Below are positions 1,102 to 16,690 of a DNA stretch of 34,812 bases, in pieces. Each line of letters starts with the position of its first letter. Positions within the stretch are counted from its first letter, which is position 1. This stretch comes from a bacterium (GTDB lineage: Bacteria > Patescibacteriota > Patescibacteriia > UBA9570): assembly GCA_030698395.1 (NCBI GenBank), contig JAUYKW010000021.1, positions 1 through 34,812 on the forward strand, read 5' to 3'. Made by a program: the position numbers and the translations under genes. Under the pieces are notes generated by a model that ran no database searches, was not told the DNA's origin, and saw only the letters and a list, made by a program, of their open reading frames with translations.

Positions 1102-1130
1102 TTGACAAAAAGCTGTTTTTTTTGTATTCT
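1102..1130 (+). promoter_or_regulatory. Sigma-70-type promoter TTGACA-N17-TATTCT
   Basis: A perfect -35 hexamer (1102-1107) lies 17 bases before TATTCT (1125-1130). A start near 1137 would give a leader of about 535 bases for the G+C-rich operon, or a separate small RNA. The -35 overlaps the loop of a weak terminator hairpin behind lgt, so part of the signal could be terminator. Confidence 0.5.
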
Positions 1131-1240
1131 GTTCGGTCGATAAGTTATGCACCAGTTGGGCATTGTTGGCGCGCAAATTGGATTCTATACTTAATAGTTG
1201 CCTAAATTTTAGGCAATAAAAAAGAGATATGCACTATATA

Positions 1241-1314
1241 TGCATGTATCTAGTTAATAATTAAGGATATACTTGTATGTTGCTGTAATTGATTATTTTG
1301 CTAGTAATTATGCA
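1241..1314 (+). repeat. Imperfect hairpin 1 with apical motif copy 1
   Basis: Nested arms TGCAT (1241-1245)/ATGCA (1310-1314), CTAG (1250-1253)/CTAG (1301-1304) and TAATAATTA (1255-1263)/TAATTgATTA (1286-1295, one bulge) enclose GGATATACTTGTATGTT (1265-1281). The same 17-base motif, with two changes, fills the loop of the next hairpin. Confidence 0.5.
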
Positions 1315-1326
1315 CTTTTCTATCAT

Positions 1327-1380
1327 TGAGAGTCTGTTAATTCAGGGATATACTTAAATGTTCTGAATTGCAGCCTCTCA
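1327..1380 (+). repeat. Hairpin 2 with apical motif copy 2
   Basis: TGAGAG (1327-1332)/CTCTCA (1375-1380) and AATTCAG (1339-1345)/CTGAATT (1363-1369) are exact inverted arms. The loop is exactly GGATATACTTAAATGTT (1346-1362), 15 of 17 bases identical to the motif in hairpin 1, starting 81 bases downstream of copy 1. Confidence 0.6.
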
Positions 1381-1456
1381 TGTGTAGAATCTGTTGCGAA
1401 AAAGGTAAAAGCCAGATCTTTGACAATTTAATCGGTAATAAAATTACTTGTTTAAC

Positions 1457-1521
1457 AGCAGGTAGGCCGTGAGTTTCGTCTATAAATACTATATATAGGC
1501 ACATCTCTCGGCCTGCCTGCT
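1457..1521 (+). promoter_or_regulatory. Stable leader stem-loop before the SPFH-like gene
   Basis: AGCAGGTAGGCCG (1457-1469) pairs with CGGCCTGCCTGCT (1509-1521), 13 pairs with one G-U, enclosing an A/T-rich loop of about 39 bases with an extra GAG/CTC helix. No T run follows, so it looks like a leader structure rather than a terminator. Its role is unknown. Confidence 0.5.
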
Positions 1522-1671
1522 ACTCGAAAGAGGGCTAGGATTAATCTCCTTGCCCATGCGGGCGGGAAAACAGACCGAAAAACAACTAGCTAACATCTGG
1601 CGCATTCTCGCGCTAAGGTGGTAAATCTGCTGGTTTCGTTCTCAGTGTGCTTCAATCAATTAGGAGAAGCT

Positions 1672-3231
1672 ATGACTCCCCAACTCGTCATCCTGTTCGT
1701 CCTCTGTGTCATCTCCGGCATCACCTCGATTCTGACCTTCGGTTGGGCGACTCCGTTCGCGCCGTTGTGCGCCGGCATCTTCCTCTCGGCCATCATGAGT
1801 GGATGGTTCGGACGGCAGCACGAGGGAGTGATGGTCGGCAACGGCAACGTGCCGTGGCCGTGGACCAACTCCGTTGTCGCTATCGGCGTGTTCTTCCTCC
1901 ACTACATTCCGATCGCTTGGGGCTGGTGGGAGTACCCCGGTTGGTTTGCTTGGTGTGTGATTGGGGCGCTGGCATGCGCCGCGATCTTCATCCTGTATCC
2001 CTCTCGGAGAACGCCACCCGGAGCCTACTTCTGGGGCTTCCTCACGGCCCTCGGTGGCATCATGCTCCGTTGGGGTCTGTACTACATGCAGGACTGGATG
2101 ACCACGCACAGTGGCTCCACTTCCTCGGCTGGCTTGGCCTTCATCATGACGGCTACCACCATCGGCATCGTCGGTTCGCTGGTGCTGCTGATCACCATGG
2201 CTGTTCGGCTGTCGGAGAAGAACGTTATCTTCTTCCGTCTCCCGGGTCCGGGCATGCTGAAGTACATCTTGAGCGGCAGCACCATGGTTGGCGCAGTAGC
2301 CGACCTGACTGGTGTCCCTCTGTCTCCGGTTCCAGTTCCTGCTGATCGGCAGGGCGACCTGACGGCTACCTGGCGTTGGATGCTCGGCAACCTCCGGCGA
2401 CGTGGGGACCCGAGGGCGTTCCTGACCAACCACGTGTGGGTTGGCCCGGCCTTCTTCTATCCTGGCATTCCCTTCTTCACGGTCGTGGGTAATTTGATCC
2501 ATGCGATCTTGCCACGACTCGGCACAGAGTACGCGACCCTCCAGCAAATGCCGGACCGCGACTTCAAGAAGGGACCCTTCAGCACCGGCCAAGGTGGCCC
2601 GGAACTCGAGGTAACGGTGGGCTTCAACATGAGGCTCATCAATCCCTTCGTGCTGTGGGGACAGGAGAACTGGAACGAGAGCCTGGATCACCTCATGGAT
2701 GTCTTCACCGCCGATCTCGTGTCGGTGATTGGAGACAGACTGTATGGTGTTCACGGTTCGCTGATCGGACGCAACCTGCCCAACGGTGGCAGGGTTCCCG
2801 GCATCGCCGTGGAAGGCATCCCAGCGCGTGCACAGACTCGGATCCACTTCGGCAACGAAGCGATTGACCCCATTCAGGTGGTGGCCTTCCTCGTCGCAGC
2901 TTTCGAGCGCGGCGTGGCGGAAACCATCGGCATGATGGTCACTTCGGTTCGCGTCAAGGACGTGGACGTGTCTGCTCTGGTGCGTGGCATCAACGACGAA
3001 ATGGTGAAGACCTGGGCCGAGCGTTCCCTCGCAGAAGCCAAGGCCGAAACCATCCGTCTCACGGCCGGAGCGCAAGTGCAGGCCCTGATGGATGCTGCAG
3101 AGCATCACGGTGTCCCGGAGGCAGATCGTGGCAAGATCCTCATGGAGGCGGCCAAGTTCTACTTCCTTTCGGGTGATGCCGATGGCGCCATCCTAGGAGT
3201 TCTGGCCAACACCAGGACCGGCAGCAGGTAA
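1672..3231 (+). CDS. Multi-pass membrane protein with SPFH/band-7-like domain (G+C-rich)
   Basis: The start is set at ATG 1672 because AGGAG (1662-1666) lies just upstream; the earlier GTG at 1618 lacks such a site. The 519-residue protein has about five or six hydrophobic segments in its first 200 residues. A soluble part follows: ELEVTVGFNMRLINP recalls the SPFH strand signature (tests of type VxVxVxYRIxDP), then come VVAFLVAAFERGVAETIG and an Ala/Glu-rich helix (ERSLAEAKAETIRLTAGAQ) as in the C-terminal coiled region of flotillin/prohibitin relatives. SPFH proteins scaffold membrane microdomains. Codons are strongly G/C-ending (CTC, ATC, GGC), unlike lgt upstream; two 60-base lines counted (2401-2460 and 2881-2940) each have 39 G/C. 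The next gene is probably a partner in one operon. The family call is moderate. Confidence 0.6.
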   Translation: MTPQLVILFVLCVISGITSILTFGWATPFAPLCAGIFLSAIMSGWFGRQHEGVMVGNGNVPWPWTNSVVAIGVFFLHYIPIAWGWWEYPGWFAWCVIGALACAAIFILYPSRRTPPGAYFWGFLTALGGIMLRWGLYYMQDWMTTHSGSTSSAGLAFIMTATTIGIVGSLVLLITMAVRLSEKNVIFFRLPGPGMLKYILSGSTMVGAVADLTGVPLSPVPVPADRQGDLTATWRWMLGNLRRRGDPRAFLTNHVWVGPAFFYPGIPFFTVVGNLIHAILPRLGTEYATLQQMPDRDFKKGPFSTGQGGPELEVTVGFNMRLINPFVLWGQENWNESLDHLMDVFTADLVSVIGDRLYGVHGSLIGRNLPNGGRVPGIAVEGIPARAQTRIHFGNEAIDPIQVVAFLVAAFERGVAETIGMMVTSVRVKDVDVSALVRGINDEMVKTWAERSLAEAKAETIRLTAGAQVQALMDAAEHHGVPEADRGKILMEAAKFYFLSGDADGAILGVLANTRTGSR

Positions 3232-3325
3232 ACAAACCGTGGTCGTGGCAGGTGCTGGAAGCGTGTATTCGCAACCACCCTGCCACGGCCATCCCCAAAA
3301 AATCTTCAACGAAAAGGAGGGGGCC

Positions 3326-3787
3326 ATGTGGTTCGCCATTACGCTCCTGATCATCGGCCTCGTCTGCCTCGGGGGCATCGCCCTCACCGGCAGCAAGAAG
3401 GCTGACGATAACTCCCCGAAGAGCAACTTCCGCATCTACCTCGAGTCGGTGTGGGACGCGCTCCCCGGAGCTCTGTTCCTCAGCCTGGTCTGGACGGCGG
3501 GAGGGAAGCTCGGCCTGGGATTCCTGAACATCTTCGTCCTGACCAGCGATGACATCTGGACTCCGCAGGTTCTGTGGGGTCCGCTGGTTGATGTGAATCT
3601 GACCACCAAGTGGTTGGGCATCAACCACATGCTTGAAGGCTTCCTCACCTTCGACATGATCTGTGTGTGGGGACTGTGCTTCTTCTTGATACAGTTCCCT
3701 GGGCCGAACTGGCTGAACAGGATCCTCTTGGTAGGCATGGTGGCATCAATTATCGGGGCCATCCTGATGGTCCTCACCGCCTACTGA
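3326..3787 (+). CDS. Small G+C-rich four-helix membrane protein, partner of SPFH-like protein
   Basis: The ATG at 3326 follows AGGAGG (3315-3320) at good spacing; an ORF from 3239 is open but has no ribosome site. The 153 residues show about four hydrophobic segments: an N-terminal helix (MWFAITLLIIGLVCLGGIAL), one near residues 45-65, FDMICVWGLCFFLIQF, and a C-terminal helix ending VLTAY. Between them is a Trp-rich loop. I do not recognise the family. It lies 94 bases behind the SPFH-like gene, shares its codon bias, and ends directly in front of the structured trailer RNA, so the two proteins and the RNA probably form one transcription unit. Confidence 0.6.
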   Translation: MWFAITLLIIGLVCLGGIALTGSKKADDNSPKSNFRIYLESVWDALPGALFLSLVWTAGGKLGLGFLNIFVLTSDDIWTPQVLWGPLVDVNLTTKWLGINHMLEGFLTFDMICVWGLCFFLIQFPGPNWLNRILLVGMVASIIGAILMVLTAY

Positions 3788-3795
3788 GGATCCCA

Positions 3796-4098
3796 ACCGT
3801 AATACTCTACGGTATCAGAGGAAACATAACTTAGAGGAGTATCTCTAAGATGGATGGTCTGTCCATTCCCTGCATGGTGAGCTTAGCAGCCAAGACCCAT
3901 GCATGACTGCTAACAACAGGGTTCTGTTAACAGGATCCCGCCATTACGAAAGTATTGGCTCAAAAGTTCTGGAGCGCGGAACTTTATAAAATAATACGCA
4001 CCTCTAGGCGAAAGCCTCCGAGGAAAGGCCTGACAGGTTGTATCAAAGTTGACGTTCGCGTCGATGGAGATCAATACCTGTCAGGCCTTCTTCTTTTT
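3796..4098 (+). ncRNA. Candidate structured RNA (trailer of the G+C-rich operon or separate RNA)
   Basis: Seven or more helices occur in about 300 bases without a gene. H1 ACCGTA/TACGGT (3796-3801/3808-3813) has loop ATACTC. H2 CTTAGAG/CTCTAAG (3830-3836/3843-3849) has loop GAGTAT, the exact reverse complement of the H1 loop. TGCATGG/CCATGCA (3871-3877/3897-3903) interleaves with TTAGCAG/CTGCTAA (3883-3889/3907-3913). Then come a CTGTTAACAG hairpin (3919-3939), AAAGTTC/GAACTTT (3963-3969/3979-3985) inside GTATT/AATAC, an AGGCgaaaGCCT tetraloop stem (4006-4017), and a terminator (4025-4089). The sequence directly shows the pairing potential; that it acts as an RNA is inference. It does not match RNase P, tmRNA or 6S RNA as far as I can judge. 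Confidence 0.55.
4025..4098 (+). terminator. Strong terminator with 14-bp stem
   Basis: AAGGCCTGACAGGT (4025-4038) pairs perfectly with ACCTGTCAGGCCTT (4076-4089), followed by a pyrimidine/T run. The loop holds an inner GACG-ttcg-CGTC stem (4051-4062) with a UUCG tetraloop. It closes the structured trailer of the G+C-rich operon. Confidence 0.8.
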
Positions 4099-4162
4099 CA
4101 TTTTTAATTTCAGCATTGATTGGATGCAATATTAGTGTTATTATTTCATTGTTAAGCGCACC

Positions 4163-4750
4163 ATGATCTGGGGCGTTTTTATATTTAAAAATCGTAAAAG
4201 CATTAGATTGAAGCGATATGATTATCGTTCACCTGGTAGTTATTTTATAACTGTAAATATTAAAGACCGAAGACATTTTTTTGGTATTGTTATCAACGGT
4301 GTTATGTGTTTATCCAGCAATGGATCTGCTACATATAGATATTGGGAAAATATCCCATATCATTTTAAGTTTGTAACATTAGATACATTTATCATAATGC
4401 CGGATCATATGCACGGTATAATAAATATTTACGACATTAATTCGAAAAAACCTGTGGGGACATGCCATGGAAAAGAAACAATCAACACATGCACAAAGCC
4501 TGTATGGACATGCCATGACATGTCCATACAAAGGTGCAACAAGTTTTCAAAACCAGTGTCAGGTTCATTATCAATGGTCATAAATCATTACAAAGGATCA
4601 GTTACCAGATATTGCAGACAAAACGGCTATTCATCATTCAAATGGCAATCGCGTTATTGGGATCGAGTCATCCGAAATGATGAAGAGTATAATAGGATTA
4701 AACAATATATTTTAAACAATCCAAAAAAATGGAATAAACAGAATAGTTGA
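4163..4750 (+). mobile_element. REP-associated tyrosine transposase (RAYT), copy 1
   Basis: RAYTs are domesticated relatives of IS200/IS605 Y1 transposases that process REP palindromes as single-stranded DNA. The 195-residue protein starts with the typical RLKRYDYRSPGSYFITVNIKDR, has the HUH motif in MPDHMHGII (His82 and His84), and ends with WDRVIRNDEEYNRIKQYILNNP, in which Tyr182 is the likely nucleophile. The linker between the two halves (residues about 95-120) is unusually Cys/Thr-rich because a REP-like palindrome is embedded in the reading frame. No IS ends or target duplications are visible. The start is uncertain; no Shine-Dalgarno is seen. A second, diverged RAYT lies at 7350. Confidence 0.85.
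4458..4530 (+). repeat. REP-like element inside RAYT copy 1
   Basis: A half copy GGACATGCCATG (4458-4469) is followed by an exact palindrome: TGTATGGACATG (4501-4512), six-base loop, CATGTCCATACA (4519-4530). The second copy repeats GGACATGCCATG at 4506-4517. The element is in frame with the RAYT gene. Confidence 0.7.
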
Positions 4751-7349: not shown

Positions 7350-7856
7350 ATGTGGTATCGCAAATCCAATAGAATGCATGGGTATAATTATTCCCGACCA
7401 GGTGTATATTTTTTAACAATTGTTACCAAAAATAGAATATGTTGGTTTGGTAGCATTTATCATGGGATTATGAAATTAAATGATTATGGGAATGTTATTC
7501 TTGAACAATTATTATGGTTACCAAAACAATATACATATATGTCATTGGATGAATGGGTAATAATGCCAAATCATATACATGTTATTGTTGTAATTCATGA
7601 TGTTGACAGGAGAGGGACAGGTCGCGGTGTAGGGACAGGTCGCGACCTGTCCCTACTACCGGATAATAAAACGTTTATACATCGAAAATCGATATCATCA
7701 TTAATTGGTGCATTTAAAACAACGTCATCAAAACGTATTCGTTTAATGGAAAACAATTTTCGTTGGCAACGGTCATTTTATGATCATATAATTCACGGTG
7801 AAAATGAATTATACAATATACGGCGTTATATACGAGATAATCCGGAGAAAGGTTAG
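7350..7856 (+). mobile_element. REP-associated tyrosine transposase (RAYT), copy 2
   Basis: The 168-residue protein has the RAYT layout: RMHGYNYSRPGVYFLTIVTKNR, HUH motif in MPNHIHVIV (His75 and His77), then FRWQRSFYDHIIHGENELYNI and RRYIRDNP with Tyr160 as probable nucleophile. Residues about 87-101 (RRGTGRGVGTGRDLSL) are encoded by a REP-like palindrome. Transcription is probably driven by the consensus promoter at 7283-7310. It is clearly diverged from copy 1, so it is not a recent duplicate. No flanking IS ends were found. Confidence 0.87.
7612..7656 (+). repeat. REP-like element inside RAYT copy 2
   Basis: A half copy AGGGACAGGTCGCG (7613-7626) precedes a perfect 28-base palindrome at 7629-7656, whose left arm is GTAGGGACAGGTCG. 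The arrangement, half site then full palindrome in the linker region of the gene, is the same as in RAYT copy 1 but with a different sequence. Confidence 0.8.
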
Positions 7857-15902: not shown

Positions 15903-15953
15903 TATCCCGCTCACAGTGCGTGTTTGCACTGGTTATCCATGGAGGAACTGAGC

Positions 15954-16190
15954 ATGAGTCAGATGATCGAGGTAGTACGGCGTAGCAGTGGCAACAGGGG
16001 CAACGTGCGGGAAGCCAAGTCCCGTCAGCAGGGTCACGGCGGCAAGGCTGGCAAGCCTGGGCAGACCGGTCGTGACTTCAGCAGGAAGTGCGATGCACTG
16101 TCGCGGCTGCATCCCGAGGCCTCGAAGGAGGAGATCGAGCGCAAGGTGGCCAACCCGGACGTCCTCGTCCGGCACATTGACTACTTCTAG
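15954..16190 (+). CDS. Small basic Gly/Arg-rich protein, G+C-rich gene
   Basis: I do not recognise this 78-residue protein. The ATG at 15954 is chosen because GGAGG (15941-15945) lies at good distance; an in-frame ATG at 15885 would lie inside the promoter. The first 45 residues are basic and Gly-rich (RRSSGNRGNVREAKSRQQ; HGGKAGKPGQTGRDF), likely disordered and possibly nucleic-acid binding. The rest (CDALSRLHPEASKEEIERKV) looks like a short helical domain, ending VRHIDYF. Codons are G/C-ending, unlike both neighbours. A consensus promoter, strong ribosome site and structured 3' region argue that it is expressed. It stands alone between divergent and convergent A+T-rich genes. Confidence 0.65.
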   Translation: MSQMIEVVRRSSGNRGNVREAKSRQQGHGGKAGKPGQTGRDFSRKCDALSRLHPEASKEEIERKVANPDVLVRHIDYF

Positions 16191-16199
16191 TTCTAGCAT

Positions 16200-16270
16200 C
16201 CCTTCTGGGGAGCGCTAGCGCTTGATCTATGGGAAGGGCGTCGGTTGGTTCACACCAGCCGGCGTCCGAC
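16200..16270 (+). repeat. Hairpin-rich trailer of the small G+C-rich gene
   Basis: CCCTTC (16200-16205) pairs with GAAGGG (16233-16238) around the self-complementary AGCGCTAGCGCT (16211-16222). Next, GTCGG (16240-16244) pairs with CCGAC (16266-16270) around TTGG/CCAG. No T run follows directly; the terminator is at 16341. Confidence 0.5.
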
Positions 16271-16340
16271 CCCAATCACAATTAATAATGTTTGATTGCT
16301 GGTAGGCCCAGTTGTTTGGAGAGGTGCTGGAGCAAGAAAT

Positions 16341-16372
16341 AAAAAAAGCGTCATTTAAATGAAGCTTTTTTC
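16341..16372. terminator. Bidirectional terminator
   Basis: AAAAAAGC-g-TCATTT pairs with AAATGA-a-GCTTTTTT, one mismatch, with A and T runs on both sides. It ends the small G+C-rich gene on the plus strand and the 16376 gene on the minus strand. Confidence 0.85.
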
Positions 16373-16375
16373 ATA

Positions 16376-16681
16376 TCATTTTTTTTGTGCATAATCAATC
16401 CATCTTTTGATACGTTCACCTTCAGCTTCTACAACCGGACCATCATATTCACCAGCATGACGTTTTAATCCCTTTAGATTAATTGTATTTTGTTTTTGAT
16501 CTAGATGCATATTAAAAGCATTCTTTTCTGGATAGAGATGAAAGCGGGGATAGTGACCACGTCCTAAATTACGCACCCAACTTTCTTGAGCAGCTCTTCT
16601 ATCTAAGATTGGATGATAGCCCATTTGCTTTAAAAGCATTGGTACATTCATCTTTAGTTTTTCTGGTAATGCAATTTTCAT
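16376..16681 (-). CDS. Conserved small protein of Patescibacteria type, function unknown
   Basis: The 101 residues (KIALPEKLKMNVPMLLKQMG; RRAAQESWVRNLGRGHYPRF; FNMHLDQKQ; KRHAGEYDGPVVEAEGERIK) match a pattern I recall from many Candidate Phyla Radiation genomes: a small soluble protein with QESxVRxLGxxxYPRFH, NLHLDQK and HxGEYDGxVVxxEAxRI. The function is unknown to me. The conserved His/Asp/Glu residues could bind metal. The gene follows thiN by nine bases on the minus strand and ends at the bidirectional terminator. The resemblance is from memory and is one reason for the organism call. Confidence 0.75.
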   Translation of the reverse strand: MKIALPEKLKMNVPMLLKQMGYHPILDRRAAQESWVRNLGRGHYPRFHLYPEKNAFNMHLDQKQNTINLKGLKRHAGEYDGPVVEAEGERIKRWIDYAQKK

Positions 16682-16690
16682 CTACATTGA

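Follow-up and report, generated by a model that had tools for sequence, protein, structure and literature searches.

Among the large noncoding RNAs, OLE RNA is associated with membrane proteins, as is the RNA described here through its operon. In the ColE1 RNAI/RNAII and TAR-TAR* kissing complexes, two hairpins have fully complementary six-base loops, and the window copy of the present RNA has such a pair. boxA is also known outside rRNA, and non-rRNA boxA such as that of suhB has a repressor or autoregulator role (PMC5725501). At the 3' end of messages, terminator strength has been linked to the stability of the upstream mRNA in other bacteria, according to one report (PMC11696848). The locus compared here with these systems lies in a window of 34.8 kb, by which the whole stretch of DNA analysed is meant.

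The candidate RNA was placed by the initial annotation in a gene-free stretch directly behind a G+C-rich membrane-protein operon, and both descriptions hold. The operon has a GC content of 0.58-0.61 and a GC3 of 0.76-0.84, and the gene order in the window is lgt, two GC-rich membrane-protein genes and then the RNA. The leader and the genes comprise the following features.

1102..1130 (+), promoter-like site TTGACA-17-TATTCT, with 10 of 12 consensus matches
1415..1434 (+), boxA-like element GATCTTTGACAATTTAATCG in the operon leader, the best match of the window to the 16S rRNA leader matrix
1457..1521 (+), long leader hairpin GCAGGTAGGCC...GGCCTGCCTGC (fold of 1440-1680, z -5.6)
1675..3231 (+), gene 1, about 518 aa, predicted membrane protein of no known family, GC3 0.76
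3326..3787 (+), gene 2, 153 aa, predicted membrane protein, GC3 0.84, its stop codon just before the trailer

The start codon of gene 1 is uncertain, and the mechanical open reading frame begins at 1618. No sigma-70-like promoter site was found on the + strand between 1354 and 4116, and a single transcript from about 1131 to 4098 would be the simplest reading of the sequence. The 12-mer GATCTTTGACAA has one exact occurrence genome-wide, in the leader of this operon; when one mismatch is allowed, six matches are found genome-wide, a number that is not above the control. A helix joining leader and trailer as in pre-rRNA was considered and found unconvincing, the longest exact complementarity being 9 nt in either copy of the RNA.

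The RNA spans 3828-4098 (P1-P8), about 270 nt at the 3' end of the GC-rich operon. The fold of 3785-4110 has a free energy of -120 kcal/mol (z -7.4), and of 462 segments scored over both strands of the window, the one at 3901 on the + strand has the lowest z. The terminator ahead of which the candidate had been placed is intrinsic, with arms (4025-4038 and 4076-4089) that are 100% complementary and are followed by CTTCTTTTTC. A DNA search of the same genome and its relatives returned one convincing homologue, a second copy in the same genome (G000) on the minus strand of contig C14 at about 16355-16690 (locus L009), with 71% identity over the aligned part. This copy also folds strongly (z -6.4) and carries a 28-nt insertion. 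Both copies lie directly 3' of a GC-rich operon, in sense orientation and with the terminator at the end; on C14 about 14 bases separate the upstream stop codon from the equivalent of P1. The parts of the trailer are listed below with their state in the C14 copy.

3796..3813 (+), hairpin 1, ACCGTA ATACTC TACGGT; absent from the C14 copy
3830..3849 (+), P1, which is hairpin 2, CTTAGAG GAGTAT CTCTAAG; in C14 CTCAGAG CGGCAT CTCTGAG, with one compensatory pair, the stem being conserved and the loop not
3852..3868 (+), P2, GGATGG TCTGT CCATTC; two compensatory and two one-sided pair changes, the loop TCTGT unchanged between the two copies
3872..3902 (+), P3, GCATGG/CCATGC with the conserved loop TGAGCYTAGCAGC; two compensatory pairs and one broken
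3883..3913 (+), proposed pseudoknot, set by hand, of TTAGCAG (3883-3889, in the P3 loop) with CTGCTAA (3907-3913)
3919..3938 (+), P4, GGGTTCTG TTAA CAGGATCC; two one-sided changes, of G-U to G-C and of U-G to U-A
3940..3959 (+), P5, GCCATTACGAAAGTATTGGC; variable hairpin that folds in both copies with differing sequence
3965..3983 (+), P6, AGTTCTG...CGGAACT; identical in both copies, without covariation
3987-3998 (+), conserved single-stranded TAAAATAATACG directly after P6; the same in both copies
4001..4023 (+), P7, CCTC TA GGC GAAA GCC TCC GAGG; seen in the fold only, the C14 alignment being uncertain here
4025..4098 (+), P8, terminator stem AAGGCCTGACAGGT/ACCTGTCAGGCCTT and T-rich tail; four compensatory pairs over the stem and its inner hairpin

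P1, P2, P3, P4, P6 and the terminator stem are thus common to both copies, and P5 and P7 are variable. Comparison of 61 pairs between the copies gave nine two-sided changes that are still paired, five one-sided changes that are still paired and two broken pairs. The shuffle null for two-sided changes has a mean of 2.1 and reaches nine in 0 of 20,000 shuffles; the helices had been picked on the same two sequences, which the null leaves unaccounted for. The balance of nine compensatory against two broken pairs suggests that the structure of the trailer has been conserved by selection, as judged from two copies. G-U pairs in place of G-C or A-U in P2 and P4 fit selection on the + strand RNA better than selection on a DNA palindrome. 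The pseudoknot pairs in both copies except for one end pair in C14; the two copies show no covariation in it, with a one-sided change only.

No Rfam family reaches its gathering score in the window copy, nor did a search at E<=10 yield one that reaches its threshold. The best match in Rfam 15, ctRNA_pGA1 (RF00236), scores 30.7 bits against a gathering score of 45 and covers the terminator hairpin only; the C14 copy has no Rfam match. With compensatory changes between two genomic copies and the strongest fold signal of the window, the suggestion of an undescribed structured RNA at this position is strengthened.

The same annotation read hairpins 1 and 2 as a kissing-loop pair, that is, as part of an RNA in which two hairpins are joined by a six-base contact. 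Both hairpins exist exactly as described, with perfect stems; their loops ATACTC and GAGTAT are exact reverse complements, and the linker of 16 nt is, by our own estimate, long enough for the contact. Both are present in the MFE and centroid folds of 3785-4110. The pair is the sole instance on the + strand of the window in a scan for perfect stems of at least 6, with loops complementary over at least 6 nt and lying at most 60 nt apart, and 2 of 300 first-order Markov simulations of the whole window contained at least one such pair on this strand (~0.7% per strand per window). The claim that the pair is unlikely by chance therefore stands in so far as such pairs are uncommon, and loses force in so far as the search that produced it was open-ended. 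As the pair is unusual yet was drawn from an open search, homologues must decide. The C14 copy keeps the stem of hairpin 2 and has CGGCAT in place of the loop GAGTAT, while hairpin 1 is absent; ATGCCG, the partner that this loop would need, does not occur, down to 5 nt, from 300 bases upstream through the element. One loop has thus altered without its partner, the kind of change that the annotation itself had set against the contact. This evidence indicates that P1 is kept and the loop-loop contact is not, and the contact was rejected as a feature of the family. Hairpin 1 and the loop complementarity are incidental or, at best, private to the window copy, and we regard an RNA built on the kissing contact as highly improbable.

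For the wider search, the C14 loop and insertion letters were trimmed by hand for MAFFT in the first covariance alignment. The resulting covariance model of the RNA core (R1) recovered both full natural sequences, whose scores are given by construction. Run on 192 genomes of relatives and 380 drawn from the phylum (about 570 in all, in overlapping sets), the model returned only the two known copies, and searches of phage, plasmid and viral-contig sequences gave no match to the RNA. A pattern scan of an 85,000-species collection gave two matches, both of which the covariance model assigned to chance. In the literature, covered through open-licence papers only, neither trailers of this kind nor boxA elements of this group were found described.

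The operon that the second copy ends consists of a vWA gene and a Tubulin_2 gene (L009 4689-9482). It too is GC-rich, and no protein family common to the two operons was found; GC3 is 0.74-0.84 in both, against a median of 0.25 for the genes of the genome. The C14 leader has a promoter-like TTGACA-17-TACATT, noted by eye, and a long hairpin (z -6.5), so that the two leaders have in common a TTGACA-17 promoter-like site, an TTGACAATTT element and a long hairpin. A weight matrix derived solely from the element upstream of 16S rRNA in the window genome and five relatives has its top match in the operon leader in three cases, at 1415 in the window, at L009 9650 for C14 and at L015 10500 for the syntenic operon of the relative G001. 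With a 20-base matrix the C14 leader match drops to second, and the best match in the relative G003 falls inside gene 1, which makes these boxA cases weaker. We also note that the 16S rRNA matches in two relatives come in several pieces (G001 C12 38588-39761; G004 C5 6093-8461), as if interrupted or misassembled. Computation thus places a conserved structure at the ends of two operons whose leaders are themselves structured, with the boxA match in that of the window.

In our preferred reading, which we judge about evenly balanced in probability, the RNA is a cis-acting 3' trailer of about 270 nt that would terminate and protect the mRNA of genes 1 and 2, and it would be transcribed from the operon promoter rather than as a separate gene. 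Transcription, antitermination and a stabilising role are inferred. RNA polymerase would start at the operon promoter and could be modified at the boxA-like element of the leader as in rRNA operons. The modified polymerase might then escape Rho-type termination over the long GC-rich genes and halt at the P8 terminator. The stable chain of hairpins, the probable pseudoknot and the terminator would guard the message against exonucleases at its 3' end, as the leader hairpin may at the 5' end.

A mere barrier has no need of the invariant unpaired segments TGAGCYTAGCAGC and TAAAATAATACG, which leave room for protein binding or a role in trans. The trailers of two operons could in that case be processed into a regulatory RNA, acting in trans or through a bound protein, that coordinates the two operons or other genes, and RNAs processed from 3' UTRs are a known kind in other bacteria. 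One fold does end two unrelated operons, its long unpaired stretches do not differ between the copies, and it may contain a pseudoknot; this reading is nevertheless set back by the lack of a promoter-like site belonging to the RNA itself and by the other GC-rich trailers described below, which are unrelated in sequence and better fit a general cis role. We hold it to be possible, on the unlikely side.

The operon can be viewed in relatives as well. Three genera of one family have in common the gene order lgt, gene 1, gene 2, trailer and NHL-repeat gene, from which the window deviates by the insertion of a transposase gene. The orthologues of gene 1 adjoin lgt in G001 and G003 and have 33% and 23% identity to the window gene, with GC3 of 0.85 and 0.70. 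Over the orthologous operons GC3 is 0.69-0.85 (window 1675-3787; L015 7838-10212; L016 5097-5594 and 6947-8635), and their neighbours have a GC3 of 0.2-0.46. Recent transfer with normal amelioration does not easily account for high GC3 retained at 23-33% identity. In G003, two low-GC genes that appear by eye to be MNT (nucleotidyltransferase)/HEPN-like are inserted between genes 1 and 2 (L016 5935-6820, minus strand).

The syntenic trailers of the relatives are structured and end in terminators (z -4.5 in G001, z -3.9 in G003). In the G001 trailer, a hairpin of 9 bp with the loop TAAA resembles P4; in the G003 trailer, the TTGAGCGCAT loop of one stem can, by eye, pair with a downstream ATGCGCT. 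Beyond the P4-like hairpin, the covariance model recognised nothing in these two trailers, and their homology to the window RNA is therefore unproven. A further long palindrome, imperfect and possibly a miniature element (CCTCACCC...GGGTGAGG; L015 7485-7625, minus strand), follows the G001 trailer.

The position of the terminator ahead of another gene raises the question of a riboswitch or attenuator of the downstream gene, with the terminator as the switch. The downstream gene differs from case to case: a transposase gene in the window, an unrelated gene for 178 aa behind the C14 copy and the NHL gene in the relatives, where promoter-like sequence of its own was seen by eye just before the start codon. 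In the predicted fold, moreover, the hairpins and the terminator stem use separate bases. A riboswitch of the downstream gene was rejected because the downstream genes differ, and we consider it scarcely probable.

The inserted gene itself (4163-4750), for a REP-associated tyrosine transposase, bears on a further reading, in which the trailer plays no part in gene expression and is the end of a cassette, mobile or duplicated, that carried the GC-rich genes. The window and C14 operons have their end sequences and the features of promoter and leader in common but enclose different genes, and REP-like GTAG..CCATGGCATG..CTAC palindromes stand behind GC-rich genes on contigs C15 and C31. The element itself, however, lacks the CCATGGCATG REP palindrome and has two copies only, where REP elements have many; the 10 kb examined at C14 contain no transposase gene, the operon is at the same place in three genera, and selection on RNA pairing is visible. 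Such a cassette appears unlikely. The window contains two REP-associated (Y1, IS200-like) transposase genes, the one named above and another at 7350-7856, and the GTAG..CCATGGCATG..CTAC palindrome is present also on C25. Integron attC sites were considered and set aside; no core-site pattern was seen by eye, and the copies are not in arrays.

Trailers of other GC-rich genes were surveyed in 385 kb of the genome around the known loci, a small and non-random sample, in which the median fold z is -5.1 for the trailers of GC-rich genes and -1.2 for those of other genes (p 0.008). Six GC-rich trailers were counted, among which one is an antisense artefact at the contig end of C20 and two (C15, C31) include the REP-like palindrome; with terminators or REPs removed where separable, GC-rich trailers still have z of -3.4 to -6.1. 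No sequence likeness was found among these trailers, or between them and the RNA of the window and C14. The survey suggests that structured trailers are characteristic of GC-rich genes as a class, within which the window and C14 copies are one homologous pair. The class includes scattered genes of GC3 0.68-0.83, among them genes for PLP aminotransferases on C15 (L063 18328-19902) and C31 (L073 16732-17907), and, truncated at the start of contig C20, a gene for a secreted protein (L067 ~1-814). In the window, a GC-rich gene for 79 aa of no family (15951-16345, + strand, GC3 0.80) has a structured trailer of its own, and the window's most structured segments include those at 16051 and 16201.

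A broader proposal, which we advance tentatively and regard as rather doubtful, is that the lineage has long retained a class of genes at GC3 of about 0.7-0.85, at least some of which would be expressed through a dedicated cassette that combines an rRNA-like boxA leader with a leader hairpin and a large structured trailer. If this is true, the window RNA would be the first recognised trailer of the GC-rich gene class. The hairpin pair from which the analysis started becomes a testable RNA element, namely the folded trailer of two unrelated GC-rich operons with rRNA-type leader features. If real, the arrangement would mean that a lineage of small genomes applies rRNA-style transcription and message protection to a special set of genes, and it raises the question of why GC-rich genes resist the AT drift of the genome.

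Comparison with the described systems places the RNA as follows. The likeness of the window copy to ColE1 RNAI/RNAII and TAR-TAR* does not extend to the C14 copy, in which complementarity is lost and one hairpin is missing. The operon leader of the window resembles the rRNA-type boxA/Nus-factor leaders in its boxA match to the 16S leaders of the group and in the hairpin nearby; in contrast to these, the element precedes GC-rich protein genes, and binding of Nus factors is putative. Large noncoding RNAs of the OLE, GOLLD and HEARO type, which came to light through comparative genomics (PMC2864571), likewise have multiple helices, compensatory changes and no assigned function, whereas the present RNA is an mRNA trailer with its own terminator, found in one genome only and without an Rfam match at gathering score. 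The stabilising 3' structures, terminator stem-loops and REP/BIME elements, occupy the same place, with hairpins behind the last gene and an intrinsic terminator at the end. The window copy differs from them in having no REP palindrome, and the RNA is set apart by its length of about 270 nt, by at least seven helices and perhaps a pseudoknot, by unpaired segments that do not vary, and by a sequence common to two unrelated operons.
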